From: Bacteroidota bacterium
GTDB taxonomy: Bacteria; Bacteroidota; Ignavibacteria; Ignavibacteriales; Ignavibacteriaceae
Direction of reading: 5' to 3'
Assembly: GCA_020161395.1 (NCBI GenBank)
Contig: JAIUOE010000007.1
Coordinates: 62,001 to 126,000, forward strand
Length of the DNA stretch: 64,000 bases
Positions 3,723 through 8,332 of this stretch are shown piece by piece. A program made the position numbers and the translations under genes. Under the pieces are notes generated by a model that searched no databases, was not told the DNA's origin, and saw nothing but the letters and a program-made list of their open reading frames with translations. Positions within the stretch are counted from its first letter, which is position 1; the number at the start of each line of letters is the position of its first letter.

Positions 3723-5603
3723 ATGAATAAAAAACCGCTCATAAAAATAGCCTTGATCGCACTCGCTCCGGTGCTTTTTTTGTTACTGTTCATTATTGGT
3801 GATACAGTTACCAGAATAGTAATGGGCGTAATACTGGTTGTAAACCTTCTCCTTCTTTTTGCCGTGTTAAAAAAGGAAAAGGAACAGAAAACCTTTGATC
3901 AGATTCTTAACGACACTCCTAAACAGGAGCCTGAAATCGATGATTTTGACGGTGGAGCGGTAAAAGTCACGGGCGTTTATAAACCCGATGCACCCAAAAA
4001 AGAATCGGCTTTCAAGCAAAATACTGCTACCGTAAAAGACCCCCCAAAAAGATCCAATATCATTACACTCAGTGATGAAGAACCAACGGATATCAGCGAA
4101 AAATATTTTGAAATAACCAATGAAGCTGCTCCGGGGGTGGAGAACAACAAGGCAACGATCAGCTTTTTTCTTGATAAAACGATTAAACTGATTCGTGAGA
4201 ATCTTCTTTCACACTCTGCCGTCTTCTTCTGGCTGAATCCTGCCACCCGAAAACTGAATCCTGCTGCTTATGTAGTCGGAGTCAACGATTTCAGGGCGAT
4301 GTCGATCCCGGTGGAGAGCGATCTTTTAAGTCAGGTGGTTAGCTACGAAAAGCCTGTTTATCTCAACGGAATAAAAGATGAAGATGAGCAGAACCTCATA
4401 AAATACTACAATTCGAAACATGGCATCAGGAGTTTTGCAGCGGTGCCTGTGTTTTTCGACCGTAAAATTATTGCTGTTCTGGCAATAGATTCGAAGGACC
4501 CCGAAGCTTTTGGAACTGAAACACTGTTCGCACTTGGAAGGTATGTCAGAATAATTACTCACATGCTCTCAATTGTTCAAACAGGATTTCTCGAAGGTCT
4601 CGCTGAAAAAAGACTGAAAGTGTTAAATGCCATAATCGACCAGTTGCTGGTATCCACTTCTGTGGATGATATTCTTGCGGTATTCGAGCAAAGGTTGCGT
4701 GAACTAATACCGGCAAAGGTGATTTACTTCCTCGATTTTTCCGGTTACTCGAAAACCCTGAAAATATCGCGGGTGTTCAGTACCGATGGAGTTCCCCATT
4801 TTGTTGAAGGAACTGAAGTTGAAATTTCAAATACCCTGGCGGGAATACAACTCTCGAATCAGGGACCTTTGTACTATAAAAACCTTGGTGAAGAAGAGAT
4901 TCCCCGCTTTTCAATAAACGAGGAAAAGGCTGAACAAGGGTCTTTTTTTACGGTTCCTTTGAATGTGAACGGGCAGTTACTCGGTATCCTTTGTTTGGAA
5001 TCTCCCGAGAATAATGCCTTTACATCTGCCGAGACACGATTTGTAGCCAGGATCAACTCTTTGCTATCTTATGTGTTCTATAACCATTCCCTGCAGATGA
5101 TGTTACGGAATGATGTGTTGTATGACGCCGAAACTAAAACTCTCAATAAAAAATTCTTTATGGAGAGAGTGGATCAAGACCTCTACAGAATTCAGCAGTT
5201 CAAGCTTCCGGGGTCACTCGCGCTCATTGCTGTGGATAAATTTCCGGAGCAAATGGAGCTTTTCGGAGGCGATATTTCCTCCAAACCATTGATAAGGCTC
5301 TCTGAATTCATCAAACTTGATGTGAATCAAACATCAGTAATAGGTAAACTTGACAAAGATGTCTTTGGAGTTTTCTTTTTTGGAAAAGACGCCAAGACAT
5401 CATTTATGTGGGCTGAAAGGCTTAAAACAAAAGTTGCAAAGCAGTCTGCATCAACACCGGGAGCATCCGGCGGATTTACAATTTCTATCGGGATAGCACC
5501 GGCAGACAACAAAAACAGTTTCGAGGAAATTTTCCAGCCTGCTCTTCTGGCTCTCCAAAAGGCACAGGATGGGAATGGCGGAAAAGTTTGCTCTTCAATT
5601 TAG
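3723..5603 (+). CDS. Membrane protein with two GAF-like domains and a degenerate GGDEF domain
   Basis: 626 residues. Two membrane helices lie at about 7-26 and 30-50. A charged linker follows, then two GAF-like sensor regions (about 155-290 and 300-455; for example FAAVPVFFDRKIIAVLAIDS and GSFFTVPLNVNGQLLGILCLES). The last 155 residues look like a diguanylate cyclase fold: YDAETKTLNKKFF resembles the usual start and FTISIGIAPAD the usual end. The catalytic GGDEF signature is replaced by LDKDVFG, so cyclase activity is unlikely; it may bind a nucleotide or signal by contact. Its stop codon overlaps the ribosome-binding site of deoB. Confidence 0.75.
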   Translation: MNKKPLIKIALIALAPVLFLLLFIIGDTVTRIVMGVILVVNLLLLFAVLKKEKEQKTFDQILNDTPKQEPEIDDFDGGAVKVTGVYKPDAPKKESAFKQNTATVKDPPKRSNIITLSDEEPTDISEKYFEITNEAAPGVENNKATISFFLDKTIKLIRENLLSHSAVFFWLNPATRKLNPAAYVVGVNDFRAMSIPVESDLLSQVVSYEKPVYLNGIKDEDEQNLIKYYNSKHGIRSFAAVPVFFDRKIIAVLAIDSKDPEAFGTETLFALGRYVRIITHMLSIVQTGFLEGLAEKRLKVLNAIIDQLLVSTSVDDILAVFEQRLRELIPAKVIYFLDFSGYSKTLKISRVFSTDGVPHFVEGTEVEISNTLAGIQLSNQGPLYYKNLGEEEIPRFSINEEKAEQGSFFTVPLNVNGQLLGILCLESPENNAFTSAETRFVARINSLLSYVFYNHSLQMMLRNDVLYDAETKTLNKKFFMERVDQDLYRIQQFKLPGSLALIAVDKFPEQMELFGGDISSKPLIRLSEFIKLDVNQTSVIGKLDKDVFGVFFFGKDAKTSFMWAERLKTKVAKQSASTPGASGGFTISIGIAPADNKNSFEEIFQPALLALQKAQDGNGGKVCSSI

Positions 5604-5612
5604 GAGACAGAG

Positions 5613-6791
5613 ATCAGAAATTTTATCTTTATAGTGCTTGATGGAGTTGGTATCGGTGAATTACCCGATGCTCCCAACTACAATGACCAGGGGAGCAACA
5701 CCCTGATAAATACAGCTTTAAAAAACGGCGGATTGAACATCCCGAATCTCCGCTCACTCGGACTGGGCAATATTGCTCCGGTACCCGGTGGTGCTCCCGC
5801 CGGTGCTCCCGTGGGAGCATTTGGAAAGATGCTTGAAGTCTCTAAAGGGAAGGACTCCACATCGGGACACTGGGAACTCGCCGGGATCATCTGTCCGAAG
5901 GATTTCGATTATTTCCATGGTGGATTTCCGCCTGAGATAGTGAATCATTTCCTTGATGCCACAGGATGCAAGGGAATCCTTGGTAATAAAGCTGCATCCG
6001 GTACCGAAATTATAAAAGAGCTGGGTGAGGAGCACATTAGAACCGGATACCCGATTGTCTATACTTCAGCCGATTCGGTATTTCAAATTGCTGCTCATGA
6101 GGAGCATTTCGGATTGCAGAGATTGTATGAAATATGTGAGATATCACGAAATGAAGTGCTGAAAGACTATTTTGTTGGCAGGGTTATTGCCCGCCCGTTT
6201 GTCGGAGAATCTGCGGAAACATTCAAAAGGACAACCAACAGAAGAGATTATTCCCTCGATCCTCCGGCAGAGACAATGCTGGATCATCTGATGAAAAATG
6301 GAATAAAAACCACAGGAATCGGAAAAATCGGAGACCTTTACAACGAGAGAGGTCTGGCTGAAATAATACACACGAAATCCAACGATGAAGGATGTGCTGC
6401 AACTCTTAGAGCCATGAAAGAAAACAACAACAGTTTTATAATGACCAATCTCGTGGATTTTGATGTCTATTATGGTCACAGACTCGATCCTGCAGGTTTT
6501 GCAAAAGCGCTTGAAGATTTCGACCGGTTTCTTCCTGAAATTTTGACAAACATGGATGAATCGGATATTTTGCTTTTGACTGCCGATCACGGAAACGACC
6601 CGACAGTTACATCGACCGATCATACAAGGGAATATGTTCCTGTGATCATTACCGGAAAAGGAGTGATACCCGGTGAGCTGGGTGTCAGAACTACTTTCGC
6701 AGATGCAGGGAAGACTGTTTTGGACTGGTTCGGAATCGATGCTCCGATAGCCGGTACGAGTTTTTTACCCGGCAGAGGAACGAACGGTTAG
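5613..6791 (+). CDS. deoB: Phosphopentomutase
   Basis: Interconverts (deoxy)ribose 1-phosphate and 5-phosphate, linking nucleoside phosphorolysis to central sugar phosphates; alkaline-phosphatase-fold metalloenzyme. Family marks are LDGVGIGELPDAPNYNDQGS, the phosphate-accepting Thr in KDSTSGHWE, and the metal motifs TADHGNDPT and DHTREYVPV. No AUG, GUG or UUG gives a complete N-terminus: GUG at 5634 would cut off the first beta strand. In-frame codons upstream read IRNFIFIV, typical of the family, and begin at AUC 5613, 6 bases after an AGGAG site (5602-5606). I therefore place the start at AUC 5613, with GUG 5634 as the alternative. The stop of the upstream gene overlaps this AGGAG. Confidence 0.9.
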   Translation: MRNFIFIVLDGVGIGELPDAPNYNDQGSNTLINTALKNGGLNIPNLRSLGLGNIAPVPGGAPAGAPVGAFGKMLEVSKGKDSTSGHWELAGIICPKDFDYFHGGFPPEIVNHFLDATGCKGILGNKAASGTEIIKELGEEHIRTGYPIVYTSADSVFQIAAHEEHFGLQRLYEICEISRNEVLKDYFVGRVIARPFVGESAETFKRTTNRRDYSLDPPAETMLDHLMKNGIKTTGIGKIGDLYNERGLAEIIHTKSNDEGCAATLRAMKENNNSFIMTNLVDFDVYYGHRLDPAGFAKALEDFDRFLPEILTNMDESDILLLTADHGNDPTVTSTDHTREYVPVIITGKGVIPGELGVRTTFADAGKTVLDWFGIDAPIAGTSFLPGRGTNG

Positions 6792-6892
6792 TCGTTTCGT
6801 CTAAACTGTTTGAACCGGTTGCGGGCAGGAATTAAAATCCCGCAAAAATTGTTACATAAGACAACCTGTAAAACCCGAAATTCGAGGTTAAA

Positions 6893-7162
6893 TTGATTAT
6901 TGGAAGAGTAATTGGAACGATCTGGTCAACGAAAAAAGATGAGAACCTCGTTGGAGCAAAATTTTTGATCGTCCGTGAGCTTGATTTGGAATTAAAAGAC
7001 AAAACGAATTTTGTAATAGCCGTTGACAGCGTAGGAGCCGGAGAAGGTGAAGTGGTGCTTGTGGCAACCGGAAGCAGTGCCCGACAGACCAATATAACAA
7101 AGAACAAACCGGTTGATGCTGTAATAATGGCAATAATCGACAAACTCGATAAGACGGATTAG
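6893..7162 (+). CDS. Microcompartment vertex protein, EutN/CcmL family (first copy)
   Basis: 89 residues. This family forms pentamers that cap the vertices of bacterial microcompartments. The fold marks are all present: GRVIGTIWSTKKDENLVGAK at the N-terminus, the core VAVDSVGAG-type segment (IAVDSVGAGEGEVVLVATGS), SSARQT and the C-terminal VDAVIMAIID. Start UUG at 6893 with GAGG at 6884-6887. The stop is immediately followed by the start of a second copy. No hexameric shell gene is in the window, so other shell parts must be encoded elsewhere. Confidence 0.93.
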   Translation: MIIGRVIGTIWSTKKDENLVGAKFLIVRELDLELKDKTNFVIAVDSVGAGEGEVVLVATGSSARQTNITKNKPVDAVIMAIIDKLDKTD

Positions 7163-7438
7163 ATGTTCCTCGCAAAAGTGATCGGAAATTTGTGGGCTAC
7201 CAGAAAGTATGAGAGTCTTGAAGGCTCCTCTTTTAGAATTATTCAGCCGATTAATGCAGATCACCAAAAAACAGGAAGCCCGATTATTGCAGTTGATACT
7301 GTTGGTGCAGGTCCCGGTGAAGTTGTGGTATATATTACCGCTTCTGAGGCAGTAATACCTCTTCCGGTTGACATGGCACCTGTGGATGCGTCAATTGTGG
7401 CAATAGTTGACTCATTATACACGAATAAGAATTTATAA
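7163..7438 (+). CDS. Microcompartment vertex protein, EutN/CcmL family (second copy)
   Basis: 91 residues, directly abutting the first copy (AUG at 7163 follows the stop at 7160-7162). Same fold marks: AKVIGNLWATRKYESLEGSS, IIAVDTVGAGPGEVVVYITA and VDASIVAIVDSL. It differs from the first copy in the SSAR loop (replaced by SEAVIPLP), so the two are diverged paralogues rather than a recent duplication. Two pentamer types may occupy different vertices or form a mixed cap; this is inference. rpoD follows closely. Confidence 0.92.
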   Translation: MFLAKVIGNLWATRKYESLEGSSFRIIQPINADHQKTGSPIIAVDTVGAGPGEVVVYITASEAVIPLPVDMAPVDASIVAIVDSLYTNKNL

Positions 7439-7474
7439 CTTTTGATTAACCTTTAAAAAAGAGAGGTGGTATCG

Positions 7475-8332
7475 GTGAGAATTACGAAGCAATATACGAA
7501 CCGTGAGAGCCAGTCGCTTGATAAATATTTACAAGAGATAGGCAAAGTAGATTTGCTTACTCCTGATCAGGAAATAGAACTTGCCATCCGTATCAAAAAC
7601 GGAGACCAGAACGCATTGGAAACCCTTACAAAAGCCAACTTAAGGTTCGTTGTATCGGTTGCTAAACAATATCAAAACCAGGGATTGTCGTTAGGTGATC
7701 TTATCAACGAGGGAAACCTTGGCTTGATAAAGGCAGCAAGAAGATTCGATGAGACCCGAGGATTCAAGTTTATTTCGTATGCTGTGTGGTGGATTCGTCA
7801 GTCGATCCTTCAGGCACTCGCTGAGCAGTCGAGAATCGTGAGACTTCCTCTGAACAGAGTGGGAGCCCTTAACAAAATCACAAAGGCATACAGCCAGCTC
7901 GAGCAGGAGTACGAGAGAGAGCCAAGAGCTTCCGAGATTGCCATAGAAGTGGACATGGATGTCAATGAAGTGGCAGATACGCTTAAAATTTCCGGAAGAC
8001 ATGTCTCTGTAGATGCACCTTTTGCACAGGGTGAAGACAACAGACTCCTTGATGTATTGCAGAACGACCAGCATCCGCAGCCTGACTATACTCTGATGTC
8101 TGAATCTCTCAAAAAAGAGATCAGCAGGGCGCTTTCTGCACTCACCGAAAGAGAAGCGGAAGTTATCAGGCTCTATTTTGGCTTGAACAAAGAACACTCT
8201 CTCACTCTTGAAGAGATCGGAGAGAAATTCAGTCTGACTCGTGAGCGGGTAAGGCAGATCAAAGAAAAAGCCATCAGGCGTTTACAAAGGAACCCGAAAA
8301 CAAAAAATTTAAAGGCTTATCTTGGTGCGTAG
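7475..8332 (+). CDS. rpoD: Primary RNA polymerase sigma factor RpoD/SigA, short Bacteroidetes/Chlorobi form
   Basis: About 285 residues. Region 1.2 ([19 protein letters not shown]), region 2 ([40 protein letters not shown]), region 3 and the region 4.2 helix-turn-helix ([20 protein letters not shown]) are intact; region 1.1 and the long non-conserved region are missing, as in primary sigma factors of this group. I choose GUG at 7475 because GAGAGGTGG at 7461-7469 lies 5 bases upstream; GUG at 7466 lies inside that site. It follows the vertex protein genes by about 36 bases, so it may be co-transcribed with them. Confidence 0.95.

Follow-up and report, generated by a model that had tools for sequence, protein, structure and literature searches.

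The deoB–pentamer locus

We analysed a 64,000-nucleotide stretch of one contig (C7), called the window throughout, and coordinates are positions in the whole of it unless another contig or locus is named. The window carries a phosphopentomutase gene, deoB (5613..6791, + strand; TIGR01696, 449.8 bits against a cut-off of 341), whose product converts deoxyribose-1-phosphate to deoxyribose-5-phosphate. A 101-base gap separates its stop codon from two genes for EutN/CcmL pentameric vertex proteins, BMC-P1 (6893..7162, +; 89 aa, TTG start; 109.5 bits) and BMC-P2 (7163..7438, +; 91 aa; 98.3 bits), both matched by PF03319 with a cut-off of 25 bits and identical to each other at 37 of 89 positions. 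The profile scores and the gap confirm the preliminary description, in which deoB was followed about 100 bases later by two diverged EutN/CcmL genes and then rpoD. The rpoD-like primary sigma factor gene (7466..8332, +), which probably has its true start at the GTG at 7475, is a neighbour outside the compartment; the gene for a GAF/GGDEF protein (3723..5603, +), a conserved neighbour upstream of deoB, is given for context only.

The deoB reading frame likely starts at an ATC at 5613, which is preceded by AGGAG; the first common start codon in the frame is a GTG at 5634. In each of the four species of the genus that were sampled, deoB seems to begin with ATC after AGGAG, where the remaining relatives that were checked show ATG or TTG. 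The targeting tail that would be expected on DeoB is not there, and since the stop codon of the upstream gene (5601-5603) lies in the deoB frame, there is no room for one at the N-terminus. On a DeoB tree, the protein of the window genome forms a long branch.

Conservation of the arrangement

Among 146 genomes of the window's order, BMC-P genes are present in 119 and some BMC domain in 139. Phosphopentomutase and pentamer genes, which the preliminary description proposed to compare in related genomes, are indeed paired: deoB lies upstream of BMC-P on the same strand, at a distance of 44-1082 bases, in 98 of the 109 relatives for which a best pentamer place is listed, and in one further relative the two are 3.9 kb apart. 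The pairing spans three families and is not due to chance; its consistent absence from relatives with complete shells would have told against the original proposal and is not what the genomes show. In many relatives a gene of about 130-140 aa, PIN-domain-like by eye and absent from the window genome, sits between deoB and the pentamer genes (L012:1750-2139, L014, L019, L030, L130).

The linkage is real and old, yet what it reflects is a housekeeping block. In BMC-P-free genomes of two families the order GGDEF-deoB-rpoD-NlpC/P60 is intact except for the pentamer pair, with rpoD directly after deoB, and because deoB and rpoD stay together after the pentamers are lost, linkage by itself proves little. 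Proximity to deoB is thereby weakened as functional proof, and the position of deoB may only mark where the pentamer pair sits within the block. DeoB is at most a candidate for the feeder enzyme that was tentatively suggested earlier, as it carries no tail and pentamer loss leaves the deoB-rpoD block as it was.

Dispersed shell genes

The window genome (4.07 Mb, 21 contigs, 100% complete) encodes three BMC-P, two BMC-H and one tandem BMC-T protein at four places, on contigs C7, C8, C2 and C3. The third pentamer gene is on C8, and the three pentamers are diverged, sharing 30-37 of 89 positions. C2 carries two adjacent BMC-H genes, coding for 93 and 220 aa. A tandem BMC-T of 184 aa on C3 is PduT-like (TIGR02526, 130 bits) and has genes for an RnfC/PduS-like protein, a semialdehyde-dehydrogenase-like protein and an SDR as neighbours. 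The whole-genome search thus places every BMC-H and BMC-T gene on C2 or C3, so that the window holds none, as had been noted from its sequence. The genes that had been proposed as further search targets, deoC, rpiB and aldehyde dehydrogenase, are in the genome as well; had it lacked BMC-H, the idea of a shell encoded elsewhere would have fallen, and it has the two on C2. What stands of the original proposal of a satellite locus is that it supplies caps to such a shell. A main locus to which it would be the satellite does not exist, since no place in the window genome holds BMC-H and BMC-P together. The majority of shell-bearing genomes retain three pentamers, two hexamers and BMC-T as open frames.

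The BMC-H genes belong to a block of unrelated genes, RelA-YqgF-BMC-H-YbbR-tmk, and the longer of them, BMC-H2 (L008:9209-9868 in the window genome), sits between YqgF and YbbR wherever a stretch shows both of these genes. Its long tail has no Pfam match in the window genome's copy and ends in a conserved LNVHELRRLAR..FPIKGR.ISKANR motif, also observed in L322, L324-L328, L330-L333, L335 and L336. BMC-H2 with this long conserved tail is retained in several lineages that have neither pentamers nor the aldehyde dehydrogenase described below, from which it follows that at least one shell protein lives outside the organelle. In one stretch (L323, genome G086) a PduT-like BMC-T and PduS-like pair is present, and no pentamer gene or other BMC domain was found in that genome.

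Tails on candidate cargo enzymes

Deoxyribose-phosphate aldolase (DeoC) of the window genome, encoded at 397.9 kb of C2, has 72 residues ahead of its core motif. A profile built from this extension (A1) was applied with a threshold of 100 bits because its scores are bimodal, at least 107 bits in one set of genomes and at most 28 in the rest. Of 89 genomes in which pentamers adjoin deoB, 87 have the extension, the exceptions being G067, where it is decayed, and G127; of 31 that do not have this arrangement, 3 have the extension (Fisher p ~1e-21, ignoring relatedness). Those three are assemblies of 78-87% completeness in which BMC-H genes are present. Nine further genomes, several of them split at contig ends or with a second BMC, encode both the extended DeoC and the dehydrogenase, and their pentamers were not found beside deoB.

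Seven sampled genomes (G003, G014, G032, G053, G064, G100 and G140) lack the DeoC extension, have pentamers only away from deoB, and have neither a tailed dehydrogenase nor any copy of the AldDH described below. We read them as carrying another BMC type, because PduL occurs in G014, G032 and G140, because G003, G053 and G064 have 9-10 BMC domains each, and because G100 has 7 BMC domains and a dehydrogenase of only 28% identity on its pentamer contig. A search for other proteins with the extension, covering 80 named loci outside the 146 genomes, gave DeoC at all 80 kept loci; the record titles are Ignavibacteria, Ignavibacteriales, Melioribacteraceae or broad names such as Bacteroidetes.

An acetylating aldehyde dehydrogenase (AldDH; 525 aa, C13) resembles TIGR02518 and scores 615.9 bits, just under the cut-off of 620.1. 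Its C-terminus ends in a phi-x-x-phi-phi helix on a variable linker, e.g. ISEEEIQKIIKEFKK, with the pattern in 12 of 12 tails and clear amphipathicity in most. Nearly all genomes that bear the shell encode AldDH with an identity of at least 61%, and it is found in 84 of the 89 in which pentamers adjoin deoB; in G047, which also bears the shell, it is only a contig-end piece at 48%. The 21 genomes that have neither pentamers nor a DeoC tail all lack it. In DeoC, a pattern of this type is seen in 11 of 14 tails and not in the window genome's own helix, whose amphipathicity is not significant. Hydrophobic moments across whole DeoC tails give no signal, and an 11-residue window brings a gain mainly for AldDH. 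An AlphaFold model of the Stygiobacter DeoC has a confident barrel preceded by a low-confidence helix (residues 3-22) and linker, which suits a tethered tail without proving targeting; the solved DeoC structures align only from about residue 62-67 on, and none covers the extension.

Ribose-5-phosphate isomerase B (RpiB), encoded on C4, carries an EutQ-like extension that matches the ethanolamine-utilisation model TIGR02536 (E 8e-6) and EutQ (E 2e-4). Where pentamers adjoin deoB, 88 of 99 genomes have the extended protein, with an open frame of roughly 209-256 aa, and G067 is the only one with just the short form. Where no shell of this kind was found, RpiB measures about 145-181 aa, except in G055, which keeps an extended copy and has no pentamers. 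Encapsulation peptides are short amphipathic helices, joined by a linker to one end of an enzyme, that bring cargo to the shell. In sum, the search for them that had been suggested yielded candidate tails on DeoC, RpiB and AldDH and none on DeoB, and these shell-tracking, targeting-like tails lend support to the earlier link to deoxyribose phosphate and to sugar phosphate utilisation (SPU).

PduL, considered as an outlet for acetyl-CoA, was ruled out, as it is absent from the window genome; it was found in only 12 of the 146 genomes. We identified no alcohol dehydrogenase or phosphotransacylase partner.

Co-occurrence, linkage and loss

Lineages without pentamers also lack cargo tails, apart from the RpiB of G055 and the three incomplete assemblies. 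In G067 and G055 the shell and the tails are partly decayed together, and G055, G067 and G127 appear to be intermediates of organelle loss in which some shell or tail parts have decayed and others are kept. The co-occurrence of shell and tails is weakened by the relatedness of the genomes: on the DeoB tree the shell changes at least 6 times and the DeoC tail at least 7 times, and only 2 independent pairs fall on well-supported branches, which are too few for significance. DeoC without a tail persists in genomes that have lost the shell, so its chemistry can run uncompartmented.

Some genomes retain looser linkage. In 34 genomes the BMC-H pair and deoC share a strand and are separated by 8-21 kb, with housekeeping genes in the intervening sequence; the record of the cultured Stygiobacter electus 09-Me contains both this pair and a tailed DeoC. 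By the listed coordinates, RpiB, BMC-H and DeoC fall within 33 kb in G005 and G008, and in G023 and G080 AldDH follows BMC-P at a distance of about 7 kb downstream. In the window genome DeoC is 142 kb from BMC-H on C2, and RpiB and AldDH are on other contigs.

A proposed dispersed metabolosome

Taking the gene content, the scattered gene places, the tails and the co-occurrence of tails and shell as they stand in the sequences, we infer that the tails target cargo and that a shell assembles, and we propose a substrate and a route for NADH. The deoB locus would supply two of the three vertex proteins of a metabolosome whose genes are dispersed. Cytosolic DeoB would convert the products of nucleoside breakdown to deoxyribose-5-phosphate, which would enter a shell of BMC-H, the PduT-like BMC-T and the three pentamers. 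Since there is no PduL and a PduS/PduT-type pair is present, NADH would probably be reoxidised by electron export through the shell. We regard it as likely that such a metabolosome takes up DeoB-derived deoxyribose-5-phosphate and has the pentamer pair as two of its vertex proteins, and the tailed enzymes suggest deoxyribose, derived from DNA or nucleosides, as what the organelle breaks down.

For the role of DeoB there is an alternative, namely that the pentamer pair merely came to lie inside the old GGDEF-deoB-rpoD-NlpC block and that DeoB plays no part in the compartment. We put this at slightly less than an even chance, and it is compatible with all of the above save what is said of DeoB. 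The intact pentamer-free block and the missing DeoB tail speak for it, as does the location of the BMC-H genes, also within a block of unrelated function; against this, the product of DeoB is the substrate of DeoC, and the linkage has been retained across three families.

A different substrate is also conceivable, in that the EutM-, EutN-, EutE- and EutQ-like parts could form an ethanolamine-type compartment whose acetaldehyde comes from ethanolamine and not from deoxyribose phosphate. The best NCBIfam matches of the shell proteins and the dehydrogenase do bear EUT names, and a 2025 metaproteome study took a Melioribacteraceae EutM as a sign of ethanolamine use (PMC12583861). However, EutM and EutN are general names of basal shell proteins, the shell-tracking tails sit on DeoC and RpiB rather than on an ammonia-lyase, and the stretches read around shell and cargo genes contain no eut genes, which makes this reading improbable. 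We consider it very improbable that the shell proteins are relics or have been repurposed and no longer form an organelle. The persistence of BMC-H2 in lineages without pentamers and AldDH would fit such a history, but most shell-bearing genomes keep the complete shell set together as open frames, and lineages that lost the pentamers lost the cargo tails too. The shell protein in the metaproteome may itself belong to the deoxyribose compartment proposed here, in which case its expression may indicate the use of deoxyribose and not of ethanolamine.

Comparison with known systems

DeoC (pfam01791) and RpiB (pfam02502) are the signature pair of SPU BMCs (Axen 2014, PMC4207490; Sutter 2021), which also have an aldehyde dehydrogenase and a PduS-like protein, and on the strength of this pair, linked to the shell here through its tails, we read the compartment as a dispersed SPU-type one. 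SPU BMCs encode shell and enzymes in one locus, whereas here nothing is co-located and the PduL phosphotransacylase is missing from the window genome; as the enzymes lie outside the shell loci, we do not file it as an SPU locus and call it SPU-like in function only. The deoB locus is one fragment of this dispersed, probably SPU-like compartment, an organelle of a known kind that is unusually arranged and for which the substrate is newly proposed. The HO BMC of Haliangium (PMC8217296) offers a parallel in that a pfam01791 enzyme is encoded remotely in some of its genomes and bears an N-terminal extension resembling an encapsulation peptide, although the HO type has a main shell locus and the window genome has none. 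As in the PduT/PduS pair of the propanediol compartment, the tandem BMC-T adjoins an RnfC/PduS-like flavo-iron-sulphur protein, but there is no diol dehydratase or PduL nearby, and the pair lies next to the semialdehyde-dehydrogenase-like gene and the SDR.

The arrangement matches the FRAG ("fragmented") types FRAG1-7 of Ignavibacteriae (Sutter et al. 2021, PMC8217296), which share unlinked shell genes, several BMC-P and no signature enzyme beside the shell, and whose substrate the catalogue does not name; FRAG compartments are also borne by Gemmatimonadetes and Planctomycetes. The window genome agrees with them in its shell genes, dispersed without a defined locus, and in its lineage, in which BMC-P is widespread. 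FRAG types have a triplet of BMC-P from different tree clades, and the three diverged BMC-P of the window genome may correspond to such a triplet. It differs in that cargo candidates can be named (DeoC, RpiB and acetylating AldDH), remotely encoded and with tails linked to the shell. Whether the Ignavibacterial FRAG compartment as a whole is a dispersed deoxynucleoside organelle of SPU type, in which PduS/PduT exports the electrons of NADH, cofactors are not recycled internally and, the organelle being assembled wholly from unlinked genes, cargo tails rather than an operon define the contents, is to us an evenly balanced question. The digestion of deoxyribose would be a new function for the FRAG type and gives a catalogued compartment that had no substrate one that can be tested, and enzyme tails that appear and disappear with the shell provide a way to find cargo that is unlinked from it.
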